Source: Anaerolineae bacterium (GTDB lineage Bacteria; Desulfobacterota; Desulfobacteria; Desulfobacterales; ETH-SRB1). Taken from it: 64,000 nucleotides of DNA. Positions 10,552-36,416 of this stretch are shown here, piece by piece. The notes under the pieces were generated by a model. It searched no databases and was not told the origin of the DNA. It saw nothing but the letters and a program-made list of their open reading frames with translations. Each line of letters starts with the position of its first letter. Positions within the stretch are counted from its first letter, which is position 1. The stretch spans positions 1-64,000 of the forward strand of contig DATKWZ010000057.1 in NCBI GenBank assembly GCA_035529315.1, given 5' to 3'. The position numbers and the translations under genes are program-made.

Positions 10552-11910
10552 TTGAAAACCAATACAAAATATCGCCTTGTTGTTCTAATCTGTTTTATAT
10601 TGATTGTTCCAATAGTGTGGTTTTTCTCAACTCTATTTGAGGGCGAAAACCCGTCTGTTGTGCTGGAACTCCCCTCTTTGTCAATAAAAGCATCTCAAGA
10701 GCTTTCCATTTCAGTGTCTGACACTAAAAGTGGTATACGAATGATGTGGATCGGTCTTTATAAAGATGGCAAAGAGGTTGTGATGCTTGATAAGGACTTT
10801 CAGGCACCAGAGTATAAGGGCGAAAAAATTCATAAAGAGACTTTTAAGATCAAGATAGAACCAAGGAAAATAGGAGTTAGCGACGGCAAGGCAATTTTGC
10901 GTATTGTTGCGCGGGATTTTTCCTGGCGCGGATGGTGGCACGGCAATAAAACATATATTGAAAAAAATATAACCATCGACACCCTGTCGCCTGATATAGA
11001 TATTTTGAGCAGAGCCCACAATATAAGCCAGGGGGGGGCAGCCCTGGCTATATACAGGCTGTCTGAGCCATGCCCAAAAAGCGGAATATATGTTGGAGAA
11101 AATTTCTTTCCGGGCTATTCAGGATATTTTAAGGATCCTGATATATTCATGGCTTTTTTTGCACTCAGTTACGACAAGGGGCCAAAAACCGAAATTTTTG
11201 TTAAAGCAACCGACCGGGCAGGCAACAATGCAATAGCCGGATTATCTTATTATATAAAAAAGAAGGAATTTAGAAAAGATGTGATTAACATTTCAGATAA
11301 ATTTCTAAACTATAAGATGCCGGAATTCGAAATTGATGCTCCGTCAGATTCCAAAACATCCGTGCTGGATAAATTTTTAAAAATAAATCATAATCTTCGT
11401 CAAAGCAACTACAAACAGGTAACAGAACTAGGGCAAAAAACCGACAACGCGTTATACTGGAACGGGCCATTTCAAAGGCTGCCAAAGTCGGCAAACAGGG
11501 CTGGATTTGCTGATCATCGAACATATAAATACAAAGAACAAATAATCGACCGCCAGGTTCACCTTGGCATAGATCTGGCCTCTCTTGAGCATTCGCCGGT
11601 ACCCGCATCCAACAGGGGAAAGGTGGTTTTTGCCGATCATCTTGGTATTTATGGGAAAACCGTCATAATCGACCATGGATTTGGGCTGCTTAGCATGTAT
11701 TCTCATTTAAGCAGTTATAATGTGCAAAAGGATCAGCTTGTATCAAAGGGTGAAATCGTGGGCCGCACAGGCATGACAGGCCTTGCAGGCGGCGATCATC
11801 TGCATTTCGGTATTTTTATCCATAACACCTTTGTAAACCCTCTTGAATGGTGGGATGCAGCATGGATAACCAACAATATAACCAGCAAGATTGAGGCTGT
11901 TAAACCCTGA
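10552..11910 (+). CDS. Membrane-anchored M23 (LytM) peptidoglycan endopeptidase
   Basis: 452 residues. An N-terminal membrane segment (about 8-28) is followed by a beta-rich region of roughly 250 residues starting with an Ig-like stretch, then a C-terminal LytM domain. The zinc-site motifs are complete: HLGIDLA, MYSHLSS and DHLHFGIF, so it should be an active D,D-endopeptidase. The start is TTG with a weak ribosome site; no upstream ATG keeps the anchor. The stop codon lies inside a palindromic repeat. An M23 enzyme is also a component of the cell-shape machinery proposed at 32.2-36.4 kb, but this gene is 20 kb away. Confidence 0.9.
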   Translation: MKTNTKYRLVVLICFILIVPIVWFFSTLFEGENPSVVLELPSLSIKASQELSISVSDTKSGIRMMWIGLYKDGKEVVMLDKDFQAPEYKGEKIHKETFKIKIEPRKIGVSDGKAILRIVARDFSWRGWWHGNKTYIEKNITIDTLSPDIDILSRAHNISQGGAALAIYRLSEPCPKSGIYVGENFFPGYSGYFKDPDIFMAFFALSYDKGPKTEIFVKATDRAGNNAIAGLSYYIKKKEFRKDVINISDKFLNYKMPEFEIDAPSDSKTSVLDKFLKINHNLRQSNYKQVTELGQKTDNALYWNGPFQRLPKSANRAGFADHRTYKYKEQIIDRQVHLGIDLASLEHSPVPASNRGKVVFADHLGIYGKTVIIDHGFGLLSMYSHLSSYNVQKDQLVSKGEIVGRTGMTGLAGGDHLHFGIFIHNTFVNPLEWWDAAWITNNITSKIEAVKP

Positions 11911-32244: not shown

Positions 32245-32589
32245 TTATTTTGTTGGTTCCTGTTTTGAAATACAATTTACATTAGCATTTAATATTCCAC
32301 CGGCCTCAACAACAAGATTTTTACATATGACCTCGCCGTTACAGCTTCCTGTTGAAAGTATAATCAACTCATTAGACGCGTTGAGCTTCCCTTCAAATTT
32401 TCCGCCCATTGTTATGCTTGCGACTTTAGTGTCAGCGCAAACAACCCCTCCTTCGGCAACAATCACGGTTTCTCCTACAAGGCTTCCCTTCACAGTCCCC
32501 TTTATAACCAATTTCCCTTTAACAGAAATCGTACCTTCAACCGTCAGCCCCTCATCAATAATAGATATATTATCCGATTTGTTCCACAT
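32245..32589 (-). CDS. Bactofilin
   Basis: 114 residues from ATG 32589 (AGGAG 8 bases upstream); an upstream start is open but less likely. The core is a right-handed beta-helix repeat pattern (LTVEGTISVKGKLVIKGTVKGSLVGETVIVAEGG...) with short polar tails, as in bactofilin/CcmA. Such proteins polymerise without nucleotide and position cell-wall enzymes in several bacteria. It is the last gene of the operon encoding the Csd4-like and YkuD proteins, which supports a shape function. Confidence 0.9.
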   Translation of the reverse strand: MWNKSDNISIIDEGLTVEGTISVKGKLVIKGTVKGSLVGETVIVAEGGVVCADTKVASITMGGKFEGKLNASNELIILSTGSCNGEVICKNLVVEAGGILNANVNCISKQEPTK

Positions 32590-32668
32590 GACGCCTCTCC
32601 TGAACCATAAAAGCAAGCCCATTCCACATGGCTTGTAGGGGCTACTCTTATAAAAGTATGTTCATATA

Positions 32669-32686
32669 ACATGGCCATGGCCATGT
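32669..32686. repeat. 18-bp perfect palindrome
   Basis: ACATGGCCATGGCCATGT is its own reverse complement. It lies between the carboxypeptidase and bactofilin genes, 3 bases past the former's stop. Function unknown. Confidence 0.6.
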
Positions 32687-32689
32687 ATC

Positions 32690-34222
32690 TTATTGTAAAA
32701 GTAAAACAGGCTCTTTTAAATCGACAATCAATTCGCCCACCTGTTTTTCATTGTAGGTAACTATCACCTGATAGGCGATCCCGTTTTTGTTCAGAGAATA
32801 GCGTTTCCAGAGATCTCTGGCCGTGTTAATTACATACCCTCTGTCTTCTCCGGTATTATTGCCAGTATTGCCGACATAGCCTTTAAAATTCACGATCATA
32901 TCTGCCGGGTCTCCGGGCCCACCGATTACATCAACAATTTCAAACCTATCCCCCTTGATCAGTTTAACATGATCATTATTTGAGAATATATGTTCCTTGC
33001 CGTTAATTTTTATTTTAAAGGAGTCTATATGCGTAGTCAAAAACGGCCTTTTTGTGATTGATACACCTTGAGCCATCTTTTTTTCGCTTTTATTAATTGC
33101 TATATAAACACTTCCACATGAAAAGAAATCTTTTTTTGCGACAACTCGTGTAGGCCCGGTTATTCTAATTTTCTTTCGCATATCGTGAAGAGTTCCACAG
33201 CCGATAATATCTACAGAAAGGCCTCTCTCATAATTAGCCTCCATATGCGATATTAAAACAGTATCTCCTGAATTAATATTCAGCGTCTGCTGATTTTTAA
33301 CAACTATCGGAAAAGAATCATTTACCGAAATAATCAGATAATCAAGCACAGGTTTATCAAGGTTCAAGCCGGGCGTCTCAGGAACAATTCCGAATTTTTC
33401 CATAAATGCATTAATCGCAAGATGATGATGTCGCACCTGCATCTGCAGAGGCAGCGATTTGCTGGTCTCAACCCCAAATGCCGGTATCCCGCGTTTATAC
33501 AAAGCATAATAGGTCGCAGATTTGCGTTGCTCCTTATGCAACGAGGTTTTTTCGATTGTTTTGTGATTGTTGAAAGAAAAGTAATAAGAGGAATCCTTTA
33601 TATCCTCATTGATCTTTGTAGCTACCGATCTTGCCATGGTGCCAAGATGAATGGTCTGCCCTGTTTCAGAATTTACAAGAGACTCACAATCAGCAATGAT
33701 CGATTGACCATAATTTGTTGGATTTCTTTCAGGCCCCTCCCATTTGTCAGAATAGAAACCTGATCCATCGTGCAGATTAAGCAGGCAATCACTTTCATTT
33801 ATCAGTTTTTTTAAAATTTCAACGATCTTAGTCTCATAGTTGTTTTTACGGTCTTCTGCAAACTTCCGATTCATATCATCATTTATTTTCCGGCGATTTA
33901 AAACAATGGACTGAAAATTAGCTCTTGGCACGACTATCAAACTCCCTTCGGCCAGATTGATATCTGCATAATGGTCAACAGCAAGAAAGCCACCTGGTTC
34001 ATCTCCCTGTATGCCGCCTATAAGCAGAAGCGTTTTACCGGGAATTTCACCGTAAATTTTGTACACATGAAGTTCATGATCTGTGCCCTCAAAAAATATT
34101 GTATGAATTCTTTTTTGTGCTGCGGCAATACCTGGTAGAAAAAAAACAGCAATAATTAAAAAAGCAACAATTATGCTTATGCAGCCCAAGTAAAATCCGG
34201 TTTGTTTGTTTTTCTTGAACAA
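32690..34222 (-). CDS. Csd4/Pgp1-like M14 D,L-carboxypeptidase
   Basis: 510 residues. An N-terminal membrane segment or signal (about 10-35) precedes an M14-type domain. Zinc ligands appear as Q72-x-x-E75 (GGIQGDEPGG) and H151 (NLHDGSGF), with DDMNRKF and the catalytic Glu at E252 (FGVETSK). Gln replacing the usual His is the known signature of Helicobacter Csd4 (Q46, E49, H128), which trims muropeptides to keep cells helical. A C-terminal beta-rich half of about 220 residues follows, as in Csd4. Function by homology is likely but untested. It is followed by bactofilin and preceded by a membrane protein and a YkuD protein. Confidence 0.8.
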   Translation of the reverse strand: MFKKNKQTGFYLGCISIIVAFLIIAVFFLPGIAAAQKRIHTIFFEGTDHELHVYKIYGEIPGKTLLLIGGIQGDEPGGFLAVDHYADINLAEGSLIVVPRANFQSIVLNRRKINDDMNRKFAEDRKNNYETKIVEILKKLINESDCLLNLHDGSGFYSDKWEGPERNPTNYGQSIIADCESLVNSETGQTIHLGTMARSVATKINEDIKDSSYYFSFNNHKTIEKTSLHKEQRKSATYYALYKRGIPAFGVETSKSLPLQMQVRHHHLAINAFMEKFGIVPETPGLNLDKPVLDYLIISVNDSFPIVVKNQQTLNINSGDTVLISHMEANYERGLSVDIIGCGTLHDMRKKIRITGPTRVVAKKDFFSCGSVYIAINKSEKKMAQGVSITKRPFLTTHIDSFKIKINGKEHIFSNNDHVKLIKGDRFEIVDVIGGPGDPADMIVNFKGYVGNTGNNTGEDRGYVINTARDLWKRYSLNKNGIAYQVIVTYNEKQVGELIVDLKEPVLLLQ

Positions 34223-34242
34223 TATGGACCCTTACGACGCCA

Positions 34243-35079
34243 TCATGTTTGGTTTGGAACAGATTCTTTAATCTCTACAGGGAAACTTTTTTCAATCAGC
34301 AGTTCACCTGTTGTAGCAAATACAAATACCGTGGCTGTTTTAAATCGTTTTGGATCAGATTCATTCTGTGCTTTGAATTTGATGATTTTGAAACGCAATA
34401 TTGAAAAATACTGCCCTTTTTTAAAATTGGCAGGTTTCCCTGAAACCAGAGATACTGATGGGAATGTCAGCCAGGTACTTTGATCATCTTTGTTTTGTTT
34501 TAGTATTACAAACGCATGTCCTGAAACAGGCGGGTCATTTTGAGAGGCATTTATTATTTTAAATTGAACATTCAATACATCGGTATCTGGTTCAAATAAA
34601 ATACTAAAATCCGCCATAGTGGTTTTCTGAAGCTTTTCAGGCCCGGCAAGATCTGTTTTTTCTCCGACCTGCTTCTTGTCCGGCAAAGAAGCTGTTTTGT
34701 CAATCGCTTTGGAATCCGAGGTTAATATATCGGCGTCTCTGTTTTTAATCTTGGCTTCCGCCACAACAAGACGCACCATCAGCAGATCCTTTTCATCACG
34801 CAAAGACACAACCTCCTGGCGCGAAATATCCAAAGCATTGCTCAAATTCTTATTATCTTCTATCATGCTTCTGAAAATAATTAATGACCAGAAAAAAGAA
34901 ACTATGGCGATAACCAGTATAATCGCTAATGTAATCACCACCATTTTGGGCTTTTTTATCGATATCATATGCCCGCGATCCTCTAAAAACAAAATACTCC
35001 AGGACCTATCTCTTTTTGACGGCTTTGGCGGTATGTGTTCCTTTATAACTTTTGCCAAGTTTCTCGAAAGATCTTCCAT
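34243..35079 (-). CDS. Single-pass membrane protein of the cell-shape operon
   Basis: 278 residues with no family I recognise. Cytoplasmic N-terminus of about 45 basic residues, one membrane helix (about 46-69), a coiled-coil-like stretch (about 74-112), a polar linker, then a periplasmic beta-rich domain (about 145-278). The layout recalls Helicobacter Csd5, which links bactofilin to the wall, but I see no sequence similarity or SH3 motif. It overlaps the YkuD gene by 37 bases and ends 20 bases before the Csd4-like gene, so translation is probably coupled. AGGGAAAAG lies before the start. Confidence 0.75.
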   Translation of the reverse strand: MEDLSRNLAKVIKEHIPPKPSKRDRSWSILFLEDRGHMISIKKPKMVVITLAIILVIAIVSFFWSLIIFRSMIEDNKNLSNALDISRQEVVSLRDEKDLLMVRLVVAEAKIKNRDADILTSDSKAIDKTASLPDKKQVGEKTDLAGPEKLQKTTMADFSILFEPDTDVLNVQFKIINASQNDPPVSGHAFVILKQNKDDQSTWLTFPSVSLVSGKPANFKKGQYFSILRFKIIKFKAQNESDPKRFKTATVFVFATTGELLIEKSFPVEIKESVPNQT

Positions 35080-36416
35080 CCATCTTTTCCCTGTATTAAT
35101 ATAAGTTTTTTTATTCCCTTTGCTTTGAATGTGTTCGAGATATAAGTCTGAATAAATGAAATTGTAGTTTTATTTCCTAATTGTTTAATAATCAGATTGT
35201 CTCTTGAAACACGAATAAAATCGTATTTACTATTCAAGCTCTCTTTGTAGTTAAGCCATGCTTTAAGATTCATTCCCTGGGAACGGAAATCGCTTGAATA
35301 ACAGCTTCCATATTGCTTAATATCCTTTGTAGACCATGCTTTCAACCACATGTCAACAAAGCCTGTAATTTCATGCTTATCTTCAAGCAATCTTTTCAGA
35401 TTAAGGCTTGCTGAAACAAGCGGATTGCTATCCTTTTGATTTGTTGGAGCTCCATGAGATTCTTCGCCGAGTATTCTGAAGAAGCCCCCCTTATATGTCA
35501 AAAAAAGTTTTTTACTTCCCGCATGTAATTCCTTGTCTGATGATCTTACAAACTGATCAAACAAGATAACATAAATCCCATTATGCCTTAAAATTGATCT
35601 TTTTTTTATTTCAACAGACAGATCCAGATTAGACGCAGAATAAATCTTTTGAACTTTGTTCCACTCTGTCCACCAGGAAATATCAGGCAAATATTCAGGA
35701 GCATAACACTCCAGATATTCATGATAAGTGCCGTTCTCAAGCGCATGGTTCCATTGTTCAACAAAATTAAAGATAGAGTTCTTGATCCCGCTCTTATCAT
35801 CAAAAGAAGCATACGAAAGCTTGTCCACAATGACAACAGGGGTTTTATGCAAGACAATATATTTTGCCAGTTTATCAATATCCTGGTTTGCCAGCACAAT
35901 ACACCCGTTTGAATCCATCGCTTTTATAGACTGGTTGGTTCCATGAAGCCAAATTGAATGGCCTTTGCGGCCTTCAATGCGATCAAAAAAATTAGGGTAA
36001 TCTATCGGAAAGGCCATGCTGCCATAGATTGGCGAAAGATCCCTCTTTTTATACTTGTCGGTGAAAAAGTAGAGCCCCTCAGGAGTTTTTTTGTCTCCAG
36101 AGCGGAATTTCCTCCCGGCCGTCTCGCCGGTTGAACATTTAAAACTATACATTTTCTTAAAGGAATCATCATAATCATCATAAGAATAGACAAGTAATTG
36201 CTGAGTATCCTTTTCAACCACCACCGCATATTTTGTATCGCTGTCATTATCAAATGAAATAAGCACGTCTGGCGTTTTTACCATGCTTGGTTCATGGGTT
36301 GCGGCCTTCAACCCGGCTTCCTTATGCTGTGATGCTGAAACTCCAGAGTTAATTAACGGCAACATAATCACCGCAAGCCATATATAAAATATCCGCATCT
36401 TGATATAACGAGCCAT
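35043..36416 (-). CDS. YkuD-domain protein with NTF2-like repeats (Csd6/Pgp2-like)
   Basis: 457 residues: signal segment (about 8-28), YkuD domain (about 60-200) with the His motif SIWLHGTN (H158) and catalytic Cys in DSNGCIVL (C172), then two NTF2-like domains (about 214-330 and 345-457). YkuD followed by an NTF2-like domain is the architecture of Helicobacter Csd6 and Campylobacter Pgp2, which act as L,D-carboxypeptidases for cell curvature rather than L,D-transpeptidases. Its operon partners support that reading. Confidence 0.82.
   Translation of the reverse strand: MARYIKMRIFYIWLAVIMLPLINSGVSASQHKEAGLKAATHEPSMVKTPDVLISFDNDSDTKYAVVVEKDTQQLLVYSYDDYDDSFKKMYSFKCSTGETAGRKFRSGDKKTPEGLYFFTDKYKKRDLSPIYGSMAFPIDYPNFFDRIEGRKGHSIWLHGTNQSIKAMDSNGCIVLANQDIDKLAKYIVLHKTPVVIVDKLSYASFDDKSGIKNSIFNFVEQWNHALENGTYHEYLECYAPEYLPDISWWTEWNKVQKIYSASNLDLSVEIKKRSILRHNGIYVILFDQFVRSSDKELHAGSKKLFLTYKGGFFRILGEESHGAPTNQKDSNPLVSASLNLKRLLEDKHEITGFVDMWLKAWSTKDIKQYGSCYSSDFRSQGMNLKAWLNYKESLNSKYDFIRVSRDNLIIKQLGNKTTISFIQTYISNTFKAKGIKKLILIQGKDGWKIFRETWQKL

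Follow-up and report, generated by a model that had tools for sequence, protein, structure and literature searches.

Carboxypeptidases that trim the stem peptides of the cell wall are essential for helical shape in Helicobacter and Campylobacter. Helicobacter pylori Csd4 acts on a muramyl tripeptide using Q46, E49 and H128, and its full set of mechanistic and metal-site residues comprises Q46, E49, R86, R94, H128 and E222 (PMC4220969). The D,L-carboxypeptidase Pgp1, in turn, can shorten the tripeptide products of Pgp2 (PMC8038945), and relatives of Pgp1 have already been noted in delta-proteobacteria (PMC3310789). The L,D-carboxypeptidase Bd1075 gives Bdellovibrio its curvature; it needs its own NTF2 domain, through which it is localized, and the localization residues are Y274 and W303, the latter required and previously termed Bdellovibrio-specific (PMC8938487). 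A cytoskeletal means of placing a wall enzyme is known from LmdC, whose hairpin is needed for bactofilin-dependent enrichment in Rhodospirillum rubrum and whose first 38 residues in Hyphomonas neptunium bind the bactofilin BacA with a dissociation constant of ~15 uM (PMC10945521). Here we describe a four-gene run on the minus strand (32245-36416) of a 64,000-nucleotide stretch of contig DATKWZ010000057.1, referred to as the window, from a sulfate-reducing member of the Desulfobacterota. This operon joins enzymes of both trimming kinds to a bactofilin and to a 278-residue bitopic protein that we call T. A literature search returned no description of the operon or of T, which is not proof of absence. 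From 5' to 3' on the minus strand, the genes and the parts of T are as follows.

35043..36416, minus strand: YkuD L,D-carboxypeptidase-type enzyme of the Csd6/Pgp2/Bd1075 kind, 457 residues, with a signal peptide and two C-terminal NTF2-like domains (Pfam and PDB matches).
34243..35079, minus strand: T, 278 residues, bitopic membrane protein and proposed bactofilin client or adaptor, in no Pfam family (Pfam null result, AlphaFold2 model, gene neighbors).
34954..35001, minus strand: T residues 27-42, predicted cytoplasmic juxtamembrane beta-hairpin and proposed bactofilin docking element (modeled strands 29-32 and 38-41).
34882..34944, minus strand: T residues ~46-66, predicted transmembrane helix (sequence; modeled helix 44-118).
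34726..34881, minus strand: T residues ~67-118, predicted periplasmic helix, probably a coiled coil (modeled helix 44-118).
34258..34632, minus strand: T residues ~150-274, predicted periplasmic immunoglobulin (Ig)-like beta-sandwich (predicted local distance difference test score, pLDDT, ~95; VIA Z 10.0).
32690..34222, minus strand: M99 D,L-carboxypeptidase-type enzyme, 510 residues, with a TTG start, a signal peptide and a three-domain layout like that of Csd4 (Pfam, PDB, residues, AlphaFold2 and VIA).
32245..32622, minus strand: bactofilin, 125 residues from 32622 but probably 114 residues from an ATG at 32589 (Pfam Bactofilin 1.4e-19; PDB 2n3d 6e-5).

The original prediction, made from the bare sequence, had described a compact cell-shape operon with overlaps or gaps of at most about 100 bases, and the gene layout bears this out. 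The YkuD and T genes share a 37-nt overlap, T and M99 are 20 nt apart, and the spacing between M99 and bactofilin is 67 nt or 100 nt, depending on whether bactofilin starts at 32622 or 32589. The start at 32589 is more likely because a GGAGAGG ribosome-binding site precedes it. In a Pfam scan, YkuD, the two Cds6_C stretches, Peptidase_M99 and Bactofilin all matched well above cut-off, with the Bactofilin domain scoring 70.6 bits against a curated cut-off of 27.9.

By sequence, the YkuD protein belongs to the Csd6/Pgp2/Bd1075 kind. Its YkuD domain (3.6e-20) is followed by two Cds6_C NTF2 stretches (1.8e-23). Bd1075 is the nearest solved structure (7o21, 1.7e-46), followed by Csd6 (4xzz, 4.9e-19) and Pgp2 (6xj6, 6.1e-18). 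The catalytic His, Gly and Cys of this family are present as H158, G171 and C172 and are conserved in 98-99% of 110 aligned relatives; H158 and C172 had been singled out in the original prediction. Both Bd1075 localization residues are retained, Y274 as Y425 (85% of the relatives) and W303 as W454 (83%). Bd1075 and Pgp2 each have one NTF2 domain, whereas the operon enzyme has two in tandem. Given these features, we predict an L,D-carboxypeptidase role. The gene is the only detectable YkuD gene in the host genome, which makes it unlikely that another YkuD enzyme forms 3-3 cross-links or attaches lipoproteins.

The M99 enzyme was originally labeled M14. The curated family is M99 (2.2e-36, 126.2 bits against a cut-off of 27), and the metal site named along with that label, Q72-x-x-E75 with H151 and its Gln ligand, is present. 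All six Csd4-type residues are identical: Q72, E75, R111, R119, H151 and E252 correspond to Csd4 Q46, E49, R86, R94, H128 and E222, thus covering the metal site, both substrate arginines and the general-base Glu. They are invariant among 27 diverse relatives. A sequence search of the PDB matched the Csd4 structure 4q6m at 7.7e-26. Succinylglutamate desuccinylases had been named as the structural match that would speak against a Csd4-like enzyme. An AlphaFold model (mean pLDDT 86.7) instead gave Csd4 as its best match in VIA, with Z 32.1 over 363 aligned residues (model residues 50-503), compared with Z 20.7 for succinylglutamate desuccinylase as the next-best family. The model has the three-domain architecture of Csd4, and the root-mean-square deviation of 14.5 A suggests that its domain angles differ from those of Csd4.

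We compared the operon M99 with Csd4 phylogenetically, using the catalytic domains of M99 proteins. In the resulting tree, ten Desulfobacterota proteins grouped with H. pylori Csd4 (support 0.998), and the window M99 fell outside this group. Csd4 is ~50% identical to Desulfovibrio-like members of its own clade but only 34% identical to the window M99 across the catalytic domain. Two genomes hold both kinds, G224 (C110, C47) and G309 (C69, C70), in each case a Csd4-type gene standing by itself and an operon-type gene. We assign the window M99 to a clade sister to that of Csd4. It is predicted to work as Csd4 does, yet it is not a Csd4 orthologue. It also differs from Csd4 and Pgp1 in its genomic setting, an operon that includes YkuD, T and, in many loci, bactofilin. 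In one further genome, a YkuD-T pair lies away from the genome's Csd4-type M99 (G292:C1, L221), so that the toolkit is scattered there as it is in Helicobacter.

The operon is widely conserved. We surveyed 395 sampled Desulfobacterota genomes and found M99 in 72 of them; every sampled locus was found through M99, so the neighbor figures depend on this sample. Within the window's own family, the order YkuD-T-M99-bactofilin recurs in every complete locus, the others being cut by a contig end. Upstream neighbors were counted only in operon-clade loci with at least 3 kb of upstream sequence (n = 101). Directly upstream of M99 we found YkuD in 94, T in 89, both in 84 and either in 99 of these 101 loci. 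Bactofilin lies directly downstream of M99 in 68 of the 110 loci with room for it. None of the 13 other M99 loci has YkuD, T or bactofilin neighbors. The recurrence of the order within the family, together with YkuD and/or T upstream in 99 of 101 loci, indicates that the grouping is not due to chance; conservation of the neighborhood had been proposed as a check on the operon. The wider surroundings, pal-ybgF-ruvCAB and rplM-rpsI, are shared by 34-48 of 126 loci, which points to vertical inheritance. A scan of viral contigs for M99 gave no match.

Individual loci depart from the standard arrangement. One contig carries YkuD-T-M99-M23-bactofilin in series (L102). In a same-genus genome, an in-frame TAA breaks M99 (G014:C25:9581-10045; L014, L026), reflecting either a pseudogene or a sequence error. 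In the metagenome-assembled genome of the Olavius algarvensis Delta 4 endosymbiont, M99 and bactofilin lie in a single open frame of 729 residues (L140:7974-10163). No membrane segment is evident in the linker between them, an odd topology given that the enzyme should be periplasmic and the filament protein cytoplasmic. Possible explanations are a genuine fusion, loss of a stop codon and an assembly error. An N-terminal motif resembling NLSIID is common to the operon bactofilins (e.g. window 32245-32589), many of which lack the MF-x-K membrane-targeting start usual among other bactofilins in the phylum.

We found no family for T in Pfam (20 members searched), in NCBIfam (the window member) or among PDB sequences, where only coiled-coil noise appeared. 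An AlphaFold2 model built from 66 relatives (mean pLDDT 84.8) predicts a cytoplasmic hairpin, a long helix that would cross the membrane once and continue as a probable coiled coil, a disordered linker and a periplasmic Ig-like sandwich. For the T model, both Foldseek and VIA returned generic Ig and sandwich domains (best VIA match Z 10.0, 2.4 A over 100 residues). T diverges faster than its neighbors, with 31-47% identity where M99 holds 65-73%. Its first 12 residues are encoded where the T and YkuD genes overlap (37 nt), and their conservation is therefore not independent. The hairpin lies outside the overlap and is retained in T proteins from loci without a recognized YkuD. We also considered two candidates that we did not keep. 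The extreme N-terminus (MEDLSRxL) was dropped as a bactofilin-binding peptide, being lost or degraded in several loci without a recognized YkuD. DUF6776, a bactofilin neighbor in Gammaproteobacteria, had no T match in Pfam.

The original prediction cast T as a linker resembling H. pylori Csd5. A linker role is indeed the likeliest reading, but the resemblance to Csd5 holds only as an analogy. Both proteins are single-pass with a short cytoplasmic N-terminus, and Csd5 has been proposed to connect bactofilin to the periplasm (PMC9448923). Csd5 ends in an SH3 domain, whereas T models as an Ig-like sandwich of ~120 residues. SH3 was not matched in Pfam at E 0.1 among 20 T proteins, and no SH3 fold appeared when the T model was searched with Foldseek and VIA, although absence from a list of folds does not exclude a family. 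LmdC offers a closer parallel. Like the LmdC of the LmdC-BacA modules of H. neptunium and R. rubrum, T is predicted to be bitopic, with a short cytoplasmic juxtamembrane beta-hairpin, a membrane helix and a coiled coil, and its gene lies beside a bactofilin gene (PMC10945521). LmdC carries an M23 peptidase; we found no M23 domain by Pfam in 20 T proteins, including the window T. T is predicted to have the Ig-like domain instead and would have to recruit separate enzymes. We conclude from sequence and model that T is LmdC-like without the peptidase, similar in layout only and not an LmdC.

A profile of T weakly matched many M23 peptidases of LmdC layout, with the match beginning at the hairpin. 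Since a set picked by the T profile is circular, we redid the hairpin test on M23 peptidases chosen by their M23 domain alone, with 110 segments as controls. Seven of the eight LmdC-size M23 peptidases scored above the controls' 95th percentile on the T hairpin (p = 5e-6), and the same test against shuffles gave p = 9e-7. Long M23 proteins did not score above the control 95th percentile.

We then asked which genes accompany T, using the 61 strongest T matches in the phylum, for which the neighbor counts are lower bounds. At least 45 of the 61 have a YkuD-linked NTF2 domain no more than 2.5 kb away, and at least 36 of those are also near M99. T also occurs without one or both enzymes. In five loci (L214, L217-L220) it stands directly beside bactofilin with no recognized YkuD or M99; in L216, again with neither enzyme recognized, T and an M23 peptidase flank bactofilin; and L222 has YkuD-T-bactofilin without M99. 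It is possible, though we hold this tentatively, that T proteins are enzyme-free, interchangeable bactofilin adaptors across Desulfobacterota, whose partners would be L,D- and D,L-carboxypeptidases in some cases, M23 endopeptidases in others and nothing but bactofilin in the rest. If such an adaptor family exists, cytoskeleton-directed trimming would be a general device beyond helical and curved cells, and the family would explain how enzymes are placed. Two genomes carry extra T paralogues with no recognized YkuD, M99 or bactofilin neighbor (L210, G309:C56; L212, G224:C210). The large genes scanned near these two paralogues matched no Pfam family.

Taken with the gene content, conservation, catalytic residues and T-bactofilin gene pairing observed here, and with the modeled architecture of T and its hairpin similarity, we modestly favor the model that the operon is a wall-trimming unit positioned from inside the cell by bactofilin through T. 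Bactofilin would polymerize on the inner face of the membrane. By analogy with LmdC, T would dock on it through the cytoplasmic hairpin, span the membrane once and extend its coiled coil and Ig-like domain toward the wall, where it may hold or guide the two secreted enzymes. Judging from their families, the YkuD-NTF2 enzyme would convert tetrapeptide stems into tripeptides, which the M99 enzyme would then shorten to dipeptides. Trimming along the bactofilin track alone would lower the local capacity for cross-linking and leave the wall bent or locally shaped. T probably ties bactofilin to both trimming enzymes.

Several observations weigh against this model. Bactofilin is not adjacent in ~40 loci; 29 of the 33 genomes without an adjacent bactofilin hold one elsewhere, and none was detected in at least three fairly complete or complete M99 genomes (G036, G109, G140). 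In at least four loci (L124, L127, L144, L161), each with over 7 kb of sequence upstream, YkuD is unrecognized while T-M99-bactofilin is retained; the two enzymes therefore need not occur as a pair. Some T matches (L206-L213, L215) lie beside unrelated housekeeping genes with no recognized partner. The H. neptunium LmdC peptide scored -8.4 against the T hairpin profile, not significantly, where the control 95th percentile was -3.5, and the parallel with LmdC therefore rests on the Desulfobacterota M23 proteins, the shared layout and the predicted hairpin. Finally, the relatives include genera that are not known as spiral.

In one rival view, the operon serves stem-peptide trimming or recycling in general, plays no part in curvature and may be connected with division or with constriction of the outer membrane. 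The related genera Desulfobacula, Desulfotignum, Desulfococcus and Desulfobacterium include oval or coccoid species, and a pal, ybgF, ruvC, ruvA, ruvB block lies upstream in 34-48 of the 126 loci, both of which speak for such a unit. We nonetheless consider it unlikely. The block is a DNA-repair and envelope context that is absent from many loci keeping the operon, T and bactofilin point to spatial positioning, and both enzyme kinds are tied to shape phenotypes (PMC3310789, PMC8938487, PMC8038945). A different objection concerns T, which might be a generic bitopic protein whose hairpin binds another partner, such as a cytoplasmic wall-precursor enzyme, and whose position beside bactofilin simply follows from their sharing a wall locus. 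Csd5 also contacts MurF (PMC9448923), several T-family genes lie away from bactofilin and both enzymes, and M23 peptidases encoded away from bactofilin genes have the hairpin too. The T-bactofilin pairs without either enzyme in several genomes argue in the other direction, as does the requirement for the same kind of hairpin in bactofilin-dependent recruitment in R. rubrum, and we regard a generic T as rather improbable.

Two further readings concern the identity of the enzymes. The YkuD protein has a weak NCBIfam match to LdtF_DpaA_YafK (1e-10, 41 bits), which would fit a DpaA/LdtF-type amidase that detaches proteins or lipoproteins from peptidoglycan, with the operon regulating tethering of the wall to the outer membrane. 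However, 41 bits is far under the cut-off of 365, the match misses both NTF2 domains, the match to Bd1075 is much stronger, and no other YkuD enzyme was detected in the genome to attach such proteins. These points make an amidase a poor candidate. Least probable of all, to the point that we give it almost no weight, is that true orthologues of Csd4, Csd5, Csd6 and CcmA have been collected in one operon. The enzyme families are the same, but Csd4 belongs to its separate M99 clade (support 0.998; 34% identity to the window M99 against ~50% within the clade) and T has no SH3 match. Of the Helicobacter toolkit originally proposed, a Csd4-kind M99, a Csd6-kind YkuD-NTF2 enzyme and a bactofilin thus stand, without orthology, the M99 being of a sister clade and the YkuD enzyme nearest to Bd1075. 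The finding is real and broader than first stated, and the description "Helicobacter-like" overstates orthology.

With both trimming enzymes, a bactofilin and a putative membrane adaptor in one compact and widely conserved locus, it becomes possible to test directly whether an internal skeleton aims these enzymes outside the membrane, and the unnamed T family gains a testable role. Non-helical carriers, if confirmed, would conflict with the idea that only helical cells have NTF2-bearing carboxypeptidases (PMC8038945).

The host genome is 2.2 Mb and 98% complete, and the contig with the operon is 76,088 bases long. Eth-SRB1 belongs to the same family as Seep-SRB1a, a genus of methanotroph partners (PMC10553843). 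The genome carries MreB, three M23 peptidases and a second bactofilin ~5 kb from mreB. Upstream of the operon lie a gene for S-adenosylmethionine hydroxide adenosyltransferase and ruvABC; downstream lie a convergent endonuclease-like gene and rplM-rpsI. The adenosyltransferase gene is absent or a remnant in two loci of the same family (L020, L021), where the operon stays and adjoins ruvB, and we therefore place it outside the unit. Elsewhere in the window, an M23 peptidase domain lies at 11557-11841 within a 468-residue frame. Between the M99 and bactofilin genes, a palindrome, ACATGGCCATGGCCATGT, is found at 32669-32686.

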